Of a stretch of DNA of 64,000 bases, positions 58,881 through 63,987 are shown one piece after another; the first letter of the stretch is position 1, and each line of letters begins with the position of its first letter. The position numbers were made by a program, and so were the translations under genes. The DNA comes from Adineta ricciae (lineage: Eukaryota; Rotifera; Eurotatoria; Adinetida; Adinetidae), in NCBI GenBank assembly GCA_905250025.1, contig CAJNOJ010000024.1:434001-498000 (forward strand). The letters run 5' to 3'. Under the pieces are notes generated by a model. The model saw only the letters and a program-made list of their open reading frames with translations. It searched no databases and was not told the DNA's origin.

Positions 58881-59045
58881 TGTCTGTACAAGATAGATGA
58901 CGAAGAAAAGTACTAACTTAGCGTGTTGACCTCCGGTAACTGGGGTGATTCTCTTAGCCAATAGAATTCTGAATAGGCGAACGAAGTAAACAGAAGAAAG
59001 AGAAAAAAATGGGTAATTCTGTGTTCTGTTATTTGCTTATCTCGA
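58881..59045. promoter_or_regulatory. Head-to-head region of AEP transaminase and zinc-finger gene
   Basis: 165 bases between divergent start codons. Inferred shared promoter; no element identified. Confidence 0.4.
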
Positions 59046-59833
59046 ATGGCTGATATAGTTTTGGAATTAGATTTAAGCCAATCAACATTCTTACCTCATT
59101 ATAAAAATTTACTACCCACGTCGAACGCAAATGAAAGCAATTCAACGAAAAAATCGTCGAAACGAAGTTCGTCGTCATATCGAGAACGTTTAGAACGTAT
59201 TAAGAATAATTGTCAATTAATTCGTGAACGACGACGGCGTTGTTCTCTGTTCTCGAATTTACCGATCGAACTTCGTCCAAGTCTATTCCAACAACGCCAT
59301 TATCAATCAGGCGCATTAGAATTGTTGAATATCAGTCCTAATCATTGGCAATCAACCAATGCATTACGTTTGTCTGATGAATATTTATATAAATGTAAAT
59401 ACGCAATGTATGCGACAACAAATCGAAATTTTAAACAGAAAGAATTCTATTTTCTACTCCGAGAACTTTTCTCTTGTTCGGCAACGATAGAAATCGACAG
59501 TAGCAATCAGTCGTATCAATGTCAATTGTGTGATTCAAGTTTTCATTCGGCTGATATATTTCATTTACATTTAAATCGTCGAAGCGTATCCATCCAATAT
59601 CAATGTTTAACATGTCAGTCGTTGATTCAAACCACCAATCCATGTCAAGCCTATTATCATTTATTACTGCATCCGAATTCGACGAAGGAAAAGCGTCTGG
59701 CACATTTGAGCATTAACTGTGATCCAAATACCTCCCTGGTAGGTTGTATTCGCATGTATATGAGCGAATGCAAGTATTTTTTGTTCTTTAGGAATTTATT
59801 GGTGATACATTCACAAAATATTGTGAGAATTAA
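59046..59833 (+). CDS. Zinc-finger protein of unknown role
   Basis: Two exons, 59046-59738 and 59792-59833, give 244 residues ending EFIGDTFTKYCEN. The N-terminal third is basic and Ser-rich (KKSSKRSSSSYRERLERIK), suggesting a nuclear protein. Two C2H2-like units follow: YQCQLCDSSFHSADIFHLHL and YQCLTCQSLIQTTNPCQAYY with two His after it; the spacing is irregular. No family recognised. It is convergent with the p66-like gene, with only 29 bases between stop codons. Confidence 0.65.
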
Positions 59834-59862
59834 TTAAAGCAGTGAATTAGATTTTTAATCGG

Positions 59863-60306
59863 TTATAGATTCTTTCGTTGGTGATAATTTATTTCCAAAT
59901 GACGTTCGCGTTCTTTCGCTTGTAAAAATGCAGACTTCATCGACTGACGGTGCTGTTCTCTAATAAAATTTCTCATTCGAATTTGTTCACAATGATCACA
60001 TAGACAAATCATCTGCCCATTGTCGACAAGTGAATACCACCAATTGACCGTTGAGTCTATACCACAGTTGAAACAAATTTGCGGCATTTGTTGAGTCAAT
60101 TCTGTCGGATGGATATTGTTTCTCAGATAATTTATAACACAGTCTAGACCTTGATGTTCGAGAAAGTCGAGATCTCTTGAGTTTGGTATGAAAGTATTCA
60201 ATGAATTGAAAACGTGAGACGATGATGGCAAGGTTAATAACTGACTTTTCAGTTTTTGTCTTAGTTCAAGACGTTTTTCCATTAATTCATCATCGTTAGT
60301 GATCAT
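59863..60306 (-). CDS. p66/GATAD2-like GATA zinc-finger protein
   Basis: Single exon, 147 residues. The N-terminal helix (DDELMEKRLELRQKLKSQLL) is followed by a GATA-type finger, CFNCGIDSTVNWWYSLVDNG then CLCDHCEQIRMRNF, and EQHRQSMKSAFLQAKERERH. The CxNC...CDHC arrangement followed by this basic helix is the pattern of p66/GATAD2, a NuRD complex subunit. The protein is much shorter than animal p66 and lacks most of its N-terminal part, so it may be a reduced paralogue. The ATG at 60304-60306 was chosen because the longer open frame starts with GTG. It lies 90 bases after the KCNQ stop on the same strand. Confidence 0.65.
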   Translation of the reverse strand: MITNDDELMEKRLELRQKLKSQLLTLPSSSHVFNSLNTFIPNSRDLDFLEHQGLDCVINYLRNNIHPTELTQQMPQICFNCGIDSTVNWWYSLVDNGQMICLCDHCEQIRMRNFIREQHRQSMKSAFLQAKERERHLEINYHQRKNL

Positions 60307-60396
60307 TTCAAGTATTGTCAATGAGAAACTGAATGGCGCCTGTTTGTAAAGTCTCACGTGTATTTGAAGAATATTAGCAGATACAAAAAAAGCATC

Positions 60397-62023
60397 TCAC
60401 TGATTTACTTTCAAAGTTAACGCTAGTTGTTCTAGATAATCTAATTTTGATTCGAATCTGTTGGTTAGTTGTTCGATGGTTTCAATCCGTGCACTTAAAC
60501 TTAATTGACGTTTTTGTTCGTCGGGGAGATATGAGGCGGGCTTAGTGGTGCCCAAAGTCAAGTCGAGACGTCGGTGAATATCGTTGAGCATGATTGATAG
60601 ACGATTATTCATTTGAGTGTTTTCAGTGACCACTTCTTTCAGGTCAATGGGCTGTTTGGCTTGTTGAAACTTCTTGCGTGCGGAAGAATACTTGAGCAAT
60701 CGAAGGATTTTTATTGCTGTTACATAACGTTTTGGTAGATCTTCGATCGACGTGATTGATTTTCGACGAATTTGACTTGGAATCGGTGTTGTTAGTGGAT
60801 TAGTTCGGAATGGGTTCTTTTCGCGTGTTTGACTAGATGTGTATCGATGGAATGGTGGTGCGGAGCTTGGTGGTATGAGTTCATTGACACGTCGTTGCAT
60901 TAATGTGTAGATTTTCCATGTGGCAACAAAACGATCACCTTGCTGAGCACATCGAAATCGCCACCAATTCCGTATAAGACTTGCAGCAGCTGGTACGAGA
61001 CGGTTCAATGCTTCATCACGCTTTTGCTCCTGTACTTTGATCGCCAAACCCTTTATATTAAGAAAGAAACGAGAATCAATAGAAGACAAGTACAATCTAG
61101 CACGTACACTGCCAATTATACCCGCTGGTAGACACCAAAATGCAACACCGAGATAGCAAATTGTTGTTGTTATCATTTTAGCAATGAAAGTTGTGGGATA
61201 GATATCACCGAATCCAATAGTTGTCATCTAAAACGAACAAATTATCGACTCGATTTTCTTTCAGAAGAATCTTAACTGTTATGATTGAGAACCACATGGA
61301 ATCGGCCATGGACTTATATCCTCCTGTGTATGAACTAGCATCCATTGGCTTTTCAGAGATGAACACAAGATAGGCGCCGATGATCAGAAACATGAAACCG
61401 ATAACAATGGTAACCGTTAGTTCTTGACGATGTTTTAAACAGATTTCCTTTAGGATTCGCCACGACGTCAATTGACGATCAACACGTAAGAAGCGAATCA
61501 TCTGTAATGGTGGCAAGTAATCTAATGCAAAGCGAGAAAATTCACCTGTTGTTAAACCAGTGGCCAACAAGTATCCGAAACCACAAAGTGTCAATATATC
61601 GAGCACAATTACTGGTTGAGTGACAAATACCAAACGACCCACCCATGTTCTATACATAGCGAGACAACCTGCTGCCCATATGCGTAATACAAGTTCGTAG
61701 GTGAAGAATATGCAAAGAAACAGTTCACCATAGTACAACGGTGTGCTTAATTTTGTTCGCCATTCGACAATGGTTGAGATTGAACCAAAAACCAGGGATA
61801 TTAATGTTAAAGCAAAGACAAATAAGTGATAGATGAGTGTACGTCTGCCCTCTTGCCTCTCAAGAACGTGATAGACGTCCGCTTTATGAATACGAAAGAT
61901 GGGACAATATCGGGAGAATCCATCAGCAGTATATTCATCGTTCAAATCTAATGTTGCTGAATAAATTGAAATTGCTGAAGGACGTGAAGCCGGGGAAAGT
62001 GTACTCTTCCGTCGAATACTCAT
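60397..62023 (-). CDS. KCNQ (Kv7)-type voltage-gated potassium channel, atypical
   Basis: Exons 61277-62023, 61108-61227 and 60397-61050 give 506 residues. S1-S6 are present: RRTLIYHLFVFALTLISLVF (S1), then S2 with YELVLRIWAAGCLAMYRTWV. The S4 segment is LPPLQMIRFLRVDRQLTSW, and S5 has ELTVTIVIGFMFLIIGAYLV. The filter is TTIGFGD in place of TTIGYGD; S6 has WCLPAGIIGS. Downstream is the KCNQ helix A, AIKVQEQKRDEALNRLVPAA then SLIRNWWRF, and helix B, AIKILRLLKYSSARKKFQQA, which bind calmodulin. A distal coiled coil ends the protein. Compared with KCNQ1, two outer S4 arginines are replaced by Asp and Pro, while a His further in is Arg. The 57-base intron (61051-61107) is in frame and stop-free. 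Confidence 0.9.
61051..61107 (-). other. 57-base in-frame, stop-free intron of the KCNQ gene
   Basis: Donor GGCAGT|GTACGTGC and acceptor ATATAAAG|GGTTTG. Removal gives PAGIIGSGLAIKVQEQ, as in the family; retention would add 19 residues after S6. Confidence 0.65.
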
Positions 62024-62409: not shown

Positions 62410-63987
62410 ATGACAGACGGTAAAAGAAACGTTTGATGTGTTTGAACATGCTGATGAACTCTCTGTTTTGCAGGAGTTGATACGCATATTTTACGGTACT
62501 ACGAAATTCAAAAACGTCTCGGAAAAGGAGCATATGGCATCGTATGGAAAGCAACTGATAAACGAAGCAAAGAAGTCGTCGCGTTGAAGAAGATTTTCGA
62601 TGCATTTCGAAATCAAACGGATGCTCAAGTCAGTGACCGAAATGACGGTATCGATTGGAAGAATTCGTAATTTGATTCTAGAGAACCTATCGTGAAATTG
62701 TTTTCCTACGGGAATTTGGTGAACATCCCAATGTTATTCGATTACAAAATGTTTTACGTGCTGATAATGACCGAGATATCTATCTTGTTTGTGAATTTAT
62801 GGGTAAAAATATCGCTTTGATTTTTCACTTTATCTTTCTGATGGATTCGATTGTCAGAGGCGGATTTACATAACGTCATTCGCAAAGGAAACATCCTGAA
62901 AGATACGCATAAACGATATGTAATGTATCAGTTATTAAAAGCGATGAAATATCTCCATTCCGCGAATGTTATTCATCGTGATATGAAAGTAAAGAAAAAG
63001 AGACTAATCCGGATTCTATAAACATCACGTTTTTTTTTCAGCCGTCAAATGTTCTAATTAATCAACAATGCCGCGTTAAAATATGCGATTTTGGCCTTGC
63101 TCGATCATTGAATTATATTTATGAGGATCCACAACATCCAGCTTTGACAGAATATGTTGGTGAGTTCATTTCACTAAAAATGAACGTCATGTTTATTTTT
63201 TCGTGAATCCTATATTTACAGCAACAAGATGGTACCGAGCACCGGAAATTTTACTTGCTTCGACAAAGTAAATCTTTTTTTTCCTTCTAATCAGGCATTT
63301 CACACTCGTTGATACATTGTTGGTTAGATATACCAAAGGAGTTGATATGTGGTCTATCGGTGAGTTGAGATGTATATCATATACTTATTTTTAAGGTATT
63401 GATTAGGTTGTATACTTGGGGAGATACTGCTGGGAAAACCTTTGTTTCAAGGAACGTCGACGTTCAATCAATTGGAACGTATTCTTCAATATATTCCAAC
63501 GCCCAGCCATTCAGATATTGCTAGTATTGCATCTCATTATGGACCAAGTGTGTTAGAACGAGCATCATCTGTGTAAAATTACCGTTAAAAAGAAACAATC
63601 TGATAGAGTTGAAGAAGATGTTTTCATTTTAGTCAAAAGAAATCATTTGATCAATTGATTCCTAATGCTGGCGATGAAGCTCAAGATCTTCTTCGGCGCC
63701 TTCTGCATTTTAATCCTGATAAACGTATAACAGCAGAAGAAGGAGTTCGTCATTCCTATGTTGCTTCGTACGTCATTTTTACAGACGCCTTTTTGTCATC
63801 ATATTTCTTCTTTTACATTAGATTTCATAATCCAAGTGAAGAAATAGTTAAAGGTTATGATGTGGTTCCACAATTGAGTGACGATATACAATTGACTGTC
63901 GATGAATATCGAAAGAAACTATACGAAGTAATTCACTTGGCTCGTTTTCGAATGGAAAAAAAAGGATATTTTCATTGGAATCTTTAG
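62410..63987 (+). CDS. MAPK15: MAP kinase 15 (ERK7/8)-type kinase
   Basis: Atypical MAPK that acts at cilia and in autophagy. The first exon is ten bases (ATG at 62410, donor at 62420), spliced at 62474 to give [20 protein letters not shown]. The Gly loop is [14 protein letters not shown], the ATP Lys is in [10 protein letters not shown], the catalytic loop is VIHRDMKPSNVLIN, then [11 protein letters not shown], and the activation motif TEY lies in [39 protein letters not shown] and [20 protein letters not shown] are MAPK15-like. The end, [15 protein letters not shown], comes right after the kinase domain and common-docking area; the long regulatory tail of vertebrate MAPK15 is absent unless more exons lie beyond the window. 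Nine or so short introns. All catalytic residues are present. Confidence 0.92.

Follow-up and report, generated by a model that had tools for sequence, protein, structure and literature searches.

A KCNQ-type channel family of Adineta ricciae with a GFG selectivity filter and a Pro-Pro pair in place of outer S4 charge

Introduction

Has a KCNQ (Kv7) channel of the rotifer Adineta ricciae given up the outer charges of its voltage sensor, and is the unusual selectivity filter that accompanies this change a genuine and conserved feature? The question is raised by a gene in a 64,000-nucleotide stretch of the genome, the whole of which is referred to here as the window. A sequence-only reading of this DNA had described a KCNQ-like channel with GFG in place of GYG in the filter and with an S4 helix depleted of its two outermost gating arginines, and had proposed weakened or shifted voltage sensing together with altered ion selection or inactivation. 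In KCNQ1 and KCNQ2, one-residue substitutions at these sites of S4 have been linked to arrhythmia or epilepsy, the channel opening too readily. A lineage in which comparable substitutions are the normal, conserved condition would amount to a natural experiment on the role of the outer S4 charges. It would also bear on how a voltage-gated K+ channel can be turned into a background one, and on whether retuning of the filter involves joint changes in filter and cuff residues.

Results and Discussion

Gene structure and assignment to the KCNQ family

The open frame, the splice sites and the alignment define a KCNQ-type channel gene at 62023-60397 on the minus strand, which encodes 506 residues in three exons (Table 1). 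Exon 1 can be aligned to KCNQ1, and the same exon structure is found in two further copies of the gene, designated C35 and C18 (the window copy is C24). Removal of intron 2 yields PAGIIGSGLAIKVQ and a gap-free alignment with KCNQ1. The C-terminal helices encoded by exon 3 are presumably those named A, B, C and D.

Table 1. Coordinates of the KCNQ-type gene and of the segments discussed in the text (positions within the window).
Feature	Position	Strand	Content
Exon 1	61277..62023	-	747 bp without stop or intron; residues 1-249: N-terminus, S1-S5, most of pore helix; GT donor
S2 stretch GELFLCIFF	61703..61729	-	E160 and F167 positions conserved
S2-S3 loop CLAMY	61652..61666	-	KCNQ1 R181 to Leu, K183 to Met
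S3 stretch with conserved Asp (D202 position)	61592..61609	-	
S4	61472..61540	-	FSRFALDYL (61540-61514) followed by PPLQMIRFLRVDRQ (61513-61472), both in exon 1
Pore-helix MWF	61289..61297	-	W304 kept, W305 to Phe
Intron 1	61228..61276	-	49 bp, GT-AG
Exon 2	61108..61227	-	Filter and S6 up to PAGIIGS
Selectivity filter TTIGFGD	61204..61224	-	Phe255 at Y315 position
Intron 2	61051..61107	-	57 bp, GT-AG; in frame, without stops
Exon 3	60397..61050	-	Calmodulin helix A (VPAAASLIRNWWR), helix B, assembly helices C and D, stop codon

The top match of the protein among PDB chains is KCNQ1 (E 2.3e-85, residues 48-355), with a second KCNQ1 match over the C-terminal helices (residues 386-498, 49.1 bits), and these two matches bear out the earlier description of the gene as KCNQ-like. 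Among the 60 PDB matches listed, the best one outside the KCNQ family is Kv2.1 (E 4.1e-16). In Pfam, the only matches at E up to 0.01 are Ion_trans, Ion_trans_2 and KCNQ_channel; the last of these (PF03520) is scored at 20.8 bits (E 3.4e-4) against a cut-off of 25, and the C18 copy reaches 40.1 bits, above that cut-off. S6 is of the PAG type with GSG before helix A, not of the Kv PVP type, and P343, A344, G345, G348 and S349 are all kept, position 344 being Thr in C18. Judged by its architecture, the window gene encodes a subunit of the KCNQ (Kv7) family, probably a pore-forming one, and sequence comparison marks it as a distinct, conserved branch.

Copies of the gene and other KCNQ loci

A search of the genome (130 Mb) with the window protein, followed by spliced models, gave at least 10 KCNQ loci, only the best candidates being scored. 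Either KCNQ1 or the window protein served as the aligned template of each spliced model, and the ends are unreliable in several cases (C37, C8 and C2); the loci on C30 and C19 (L048 and L049; 25-26% identity) and the remaining non-KCNQ matches were left out. The two further copies of the window gene share 98% (C35) and 69% (C18) amino acid identity with it. Between C24 and C35, dN is 0.011 and dS 0.171 (dN/dS about 0.07). For C24 and C18 the NG86 method, the sole one applied to the C18 pairs, gave a dN of 0.233-0.239, a saturated dS of 2.9-3.0 and a rough dN/dS of about 0.08. The pairing of the contigs fits what we take to be the degenerate tetraploid state of bdelloids.

Alignment with other KCNQs, as the earlier reading had called for, separates the family cleanly: GFG and the Pro-Pro pair are present together at all three family loci and at 0/7 of the other KCNQ loci found (C3, C8, C2, C123, C195, C11 and C37), every one of which has GYG and the first two S4 charges, R1 and R2. 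The three aligned PDB KCNQ sequences likewise have GYG and both charges. This comparison confirms that GFG and Pro-Pro are real and conserved, more than chance would give, and that they have been held across a pair of copies with saturated synonymous sites. In a tree from which L028 was left out, the three copies form one clade with 100/100 support; the place of this clade among the KCNQs is unsure because long branches meet there, and C11/C37 as its sister is a lead only. Pattern searches of GTDB genome contigs (48 stretches matched) and of IMG/VR (21 stretches) returned no relatives, a result that is uninformative on other rotifers since animals are not expected in either collection.

The S4 segment

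The full S4 (61540-61472) reads FSRFALDYLPPLQMIRFLRVDRQ. It was aligned with KCNQ1 through the PDB chains, and the charges are named R1 to R6 after the accessible part of PMC11294085. At the positions of KCNQ1 R228, R231, F232, Q234, R237, H240 and R243 the window protein has Asp, Pro, Pro, Gln, Arg, Arg and Arg, so that R1 is Asp168, R2 is Pro171, Pro172 follows, and Q3, R4, R5 and R6 are retained. The two outermost gating arginines are thus Asp and Pro with a Pro-Pro pair, just as had been described. R1 is Asp, Asp and Thr in C24, C35 and C18, respectively, and the R2 position is occupied by Pro at each of these loci. The Arg for an inner His is present as well, only it is not unusual: H240 to Arg is an ordinary change, since Arg is likewise found at this position in KCNQ5 and in C123 and C195, two KCNQ2-5-like loci from the same genome. 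A mis-joined S4 exon had been named as the finding that would speak against the depleted sensor; LDYLPPLQMIRFLRVDRQ lies within a single exon, S4 is not mis-joined because it is wholly inside exon 1, and the Pro-Pro pair recurs at the two other loci. The single-sequence structure model had a mean pLDDT of 52.5, with 38-45 in the blocks that cover S4; at this quality it does not resolve how S4 is shaped, and it was discarded.

Substitutions at the corresponding positions of KCNQ1 have been compiled (PMC11294085, Table 7). At R2, R231Q, R231E, R231A and R231W are constitutively open with and without KCNE1, and R231K shifts activation in the hyperpolarising direction. R231C gave a hyperpolarising shift without KCNE1 and comparable behaviour with KCNE1 in one study, and a constitutively open channel with KCNE1 in a second. 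At R1, the acidic R228E is constitutively open and R228Q causes a hyperpolarising shift, and R228C, R228A and R228W cause depolarising shifts without KCNE1 (PMC11294085, Table 7). H240R shifts activation in the hyperpolarising direction without KCNE1 and in the depolarising direction with it (same table). A proline in S4 can impair function, since Q234P and L236P lower the current density of KCNQ1 (PMC11294085). In KCNQ2, replacement of the first charge in R198Q displaces the voltage dependence of S4 movement, and that of opening, by about -33 mV, according to the available part of PMC9197397.

Selectivity filter and pore helix

The filter codons read GGA TTC GGT (61215-61207, minus strand). 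The Phe codon is TTC in C24, TTC in C35 and TTT in C18, and GFG in place of GYG accordingly holds at all three loci. The interval given for the whole feature in the sequence-only reading, 61220-61560, does contain S4, the GFG codons falling a few bases outside it. The remaining signature residues of the filter (T, I, G, G and D) are intact. At the V319 position the residue is Tyr, from which, by comparison with KCNQ2, a higher sensitivity to TEA block is predicted.

The filter change is accompanied in 3/3 family copies by W305 to Phe. By analogy with W68 and Y78 of KcsA, we take W305 to be an aromatic residue of the pore helix that is packed against the Tyr of the filter. Among the seven other KCNQ loci only C2 has Phe at this position, and W305F does not force GFG, because C2 has Phe there and yet GYG. 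This locus (C2:1275262-1276335, L042) is a divergent KCNQ with W305F, GYG and a standard S4, and a second copy of it was not found in the genome search.

The K+ channel hERG has a GFG filter, which possibly contributes there to fast inactivation (PMC3404103, in the part available). The network of hydrogen bonds by which the filters of other K+ channels are stabilised is absent from hERG, as described in the accessible text of PMC9523588. A GFG filter combined with W305F is expected to stay K+-selective and to differ in stability, inactivation or block, and altered ion selection is the weakest part of the earlier interpretation because hERG, a K+ channel, has GFG too. A channel admitting Na+ besides K+, and hence acting as a depolarising leak, would suit the alteration of both a filter and a cuff residue in all three copies, and we judge it very improbable with the signature otherwise intact and with the hERG precedent (PMC3404103, available part).

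Other family-specific changes

The positions of E160, F167, E170 and D202 are retained in 3/3 family copies; the roles of the KCNQ2 residues that correspond to E160 and F167 are treated in the available part of PMC9197397. In C24, C35 and C18, R181 is replaced by Leu throughout, K183 by Met, Met and Gln, and R195 by Thr, Thr and Ser. R190 is kept in all three copies, K354 and R360 are also kept, and C18 has a basic residue at 192 and 196. The basic residues of the S2-S3 region presumably have a role with PIP2. The IQ of helix A, which we take to be a calmodulin site, has become IR, and F351 has become Leu, both in 3/3 copies. F340 is Trp in the family, a change common to C11 and C37. The statement that the calmodulin helices and S6 are normal therefore holds roughly, with IQ to IR and F351L as family-wide exceptions.

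Drift and conservation along the protein

Between C24 and C18 the outer S4 (KCNQ1 220-230) is identical at 3/11 positions, compared with 135/167 in the rest of the membrane core (Fisher one-sided p 0.0003, a value qualified by the segment having been picked after the alignment was seen). The same segment is identical at 11/11, 10/11 and 11/11 positions in three other KCNQ pairs. The inner S4 (231-245) has 14 of 15 positions identical, PPLQMIRFLR being unchanged. The S4-S5 linker is identical at 7/12 positions, against 12/12 in each of the three other pairs, and drift is also seen in S2-S3 (12/20), the S3-S4 loop (3/8) and the turret (6/16). The corresponding identities are 10/12 for the pore helix, 6/7 for the filter and 24/27 for S6. 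From these comparisons it seems that the outer S4 is no longer held and that the coupling linker is looser too, the Pro-Pro pair and the inner charges being held. The C24/C18 pair has a dN of 0.24 and a dS of 3.0, against 0.08-0.12 and 1.2-1.75 in the other KCNQ pairs, and greater age and faster change are inseparable for it because both values are higher; its larger divergence may merely reflect an older split.

Proposed mechanism and alternatives

We see about an even chance that the window gene would encode a K+-selective KCNQ whose activation is either largely independent of voltage or left-shifted by a wide margin, its sensor having been disabled from the outer end. Little hold on the resting state is expected because R1 is acidic or neutral, because R2 is Pro, and because of the behaviour of the published KCNQ1 and KCNQ2 variants. 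The S4 helix would begin at the Pro-Pro pair, and negative voltage could not pull down an S4 without outer charges; S4 would then rest in the up, activated position and the pore would be open constitutively or from very negative voltage. The result would be a background K+ conductance governed less by voltage than by calmodulin or lipids. Retained in the protein are the inner S4 (Q3, R4, R5 and R6), its acidic counterparts in S2 and S3, the pore helix, an S6 of the KCNQ type and the helices of the C-terminus. Most published R2 substitutions of KCNQ1, and an acidic R1, open the channel constitutively, which makes the earlier suggestion of weakened or shifted voltage sensing more specific. More tentatively, and with a probability somewhat below even, the family may be a whole animal KCNQ subfamily that is voltage-independent, with the outer S4 charges lost beneath a Pro-Pro cap, the cuff rebuilt by W305F and Y315F, and gating by calmodulin, lipid or the filter.

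Several observations run counter to the constitutively open channel. In KCNQ1, R228C, R228A and R228W (without KCNE1) and H240R (with KCNE1) shift activation in the depolarising direction, R231C is constitutively open in one of two studies listed, and Q234P and L236P lower the current density; the PF03520 score of the window protein is also below its cut-off. With fewer basic residues in S2-S3, PIP2 might bind less well and the pore might close, and the drift between C24 and C18 reaches beyond the outer S4 and includes the S4-S5 linker. The latter, with a protein divergence above that of the other KCNQ pairs, also suits the main rival, a silent or modulatory subunit that would conduct poorly alone and join another KCNQ, for example of the C11/C37 type, shifting its voltage range or filter behaviour. 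Such a subunit would find possible partners in the seven conventional KCNQ loci and a means of joining them in its conserved C-terminal assembly region, and the nearby KCNQ1 prolines Q234P and L236P, which cut current density, point the same way; the identities of pore helix, filter and S6 between C24 and C18 are nevertheless those expected of a conducting subunit, and we think this alternative unlikely.

Unlikely, too, and by a little more, is an ordinary voltage-gated KCNQ with fewer effective charges, in which R4, R5 and R6 would suffice and the slope would be shallower or the midpoint shifted. Neither these charges nor the residues at the E160, E170 and D202 positions have been lost, KCNQ2 R198Q retains voltage-dependent S4 movement (PMC9197397, accessible text), and several R228 substitutions of KCNQ1 merely shift activation; against this, the R231Q, E, A and W channels are constitutively open (PMC11294085), C24 and C18 have drifted apart in the outer S4, and the Pro-Pro pair is the same in 3/3 copies. 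An artefact or a decaying gene, for which the PF03520 score of the window protein below cut-off might speak, can practically be dismissed: sequencing error and mis-splicing were rejected on finding the same residues, with synonymous codon differences, at three loci and S4 within one exon, and a pseudogene on finding three stop-free models, a dN/dS of about 0.07-0.08 and a C18 copy that passes the PF03520 cut-off.

Comparison with known channels

The window protein resembles KCNQ1 (39% core identity to a human-type chain) in its six membrane segments, the PAG of S6, the C-terminal helices and the E160, F167, E170 and D202 positions. Another KCNQ1 chain in the comparison, near-identical to 5vms, is more likely the frog than the chick protein, and no result depends on the species of the chains. 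The window protein differs from KCNQ1 in R1 (Asp or Thr), in the Pro-Pro pair at R2 and F232, in Y315F and W305F, in the replacement of R181, K183 and R195, and in IQ to IR, F340W and F351L. The KCNQ1 variants R231C/Q/A/W/E and R228E are stripped of positive charge at identical positions, but they are single patient or laboratory changes, whereas the state found here is natural, combined and conserved. Outside the family, the highest core identity to the window protein is that of C3 (43%) and of C11 and C37 (43-44%). C11 and C37 also share LTSW after S4, F340W and NWWR in helix A, and unlike the family they keep R1, R2, GYG, W305, R181, K183, R195 and IQ. On sequence, then, the window channel is one that departs from the KCNQs compared here in both filter and sensor.

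EAG channels also have a GFG filter, and in hERG the residue that follows it is Asn, where the window protein has Asp. Neither the C-linker/CNBHD nor the PAS domain of EAG and hERG was found in the window protein by Pfam at E up to 0.01. The likeness to hERG lies in the GFG filter (PMC3404103, available part), and the EAG family differs in having a CNBHD and non-swapped sensors (PMC9989356, in the part accessible), in contrast to the KCNQ architecture here. The main text of that paper on cnidarian KCNQ channels, as far as accessible, contains no GFG and no such channel. Our literature searches (rotifer or bdelloid channels, GFG versus GYG, and KCNQ phylogeny), which were mostly by title and mainly among papers outside subscription journals, found no report of such a channel.

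Neighbouring genes

Genes for what we take to be Shaw-like Kv channels lie about 38-78 kb from each KCNQ copy, at C24:534502-535050 (L026), C35:99385-99927 (L025) and C18:328642-329139 (L022). Further pore-region matches are located at C24:517580, C35:117191 and C18:357217, and with Shaw-like and pore-region matches near the KCNQ copies each contig seems to hold a small K+ channel cluster. The Shaw-like proteins of L022 and L026 share with the window protein an outer S4 without basic residues, but they belong to another family, have GYG and have no Pro-Pro pair; the comparison is one of function, not of membership. Drosophila Shaw has a weak voltage dependence. The literature search, including the accessible part of PMC4663795, found no statement to this effect.

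Directly downstream of the KCNQ stop codon, on the minus strand, an open reading frame at 59866-60396 includes a Cys-rich stretch (CFNCG...CLCDHC) and has no Pfam family above cut-off. Another at 58977-59837 on the plus strand has stretches rich in Cys and His; its weak likeness to a C2H2 finger of ZNF592 (E 5.5e-4) is below cut-off. On the other side, 62458-63987 of the plus strand holds a multi-exon protein kinase gene, MAP kinase-like by eye (TEY and DFGLARS), which stands head to head with the KCNQ gene, its beginning separated from the start codon of the latter by roughly 450 bp.
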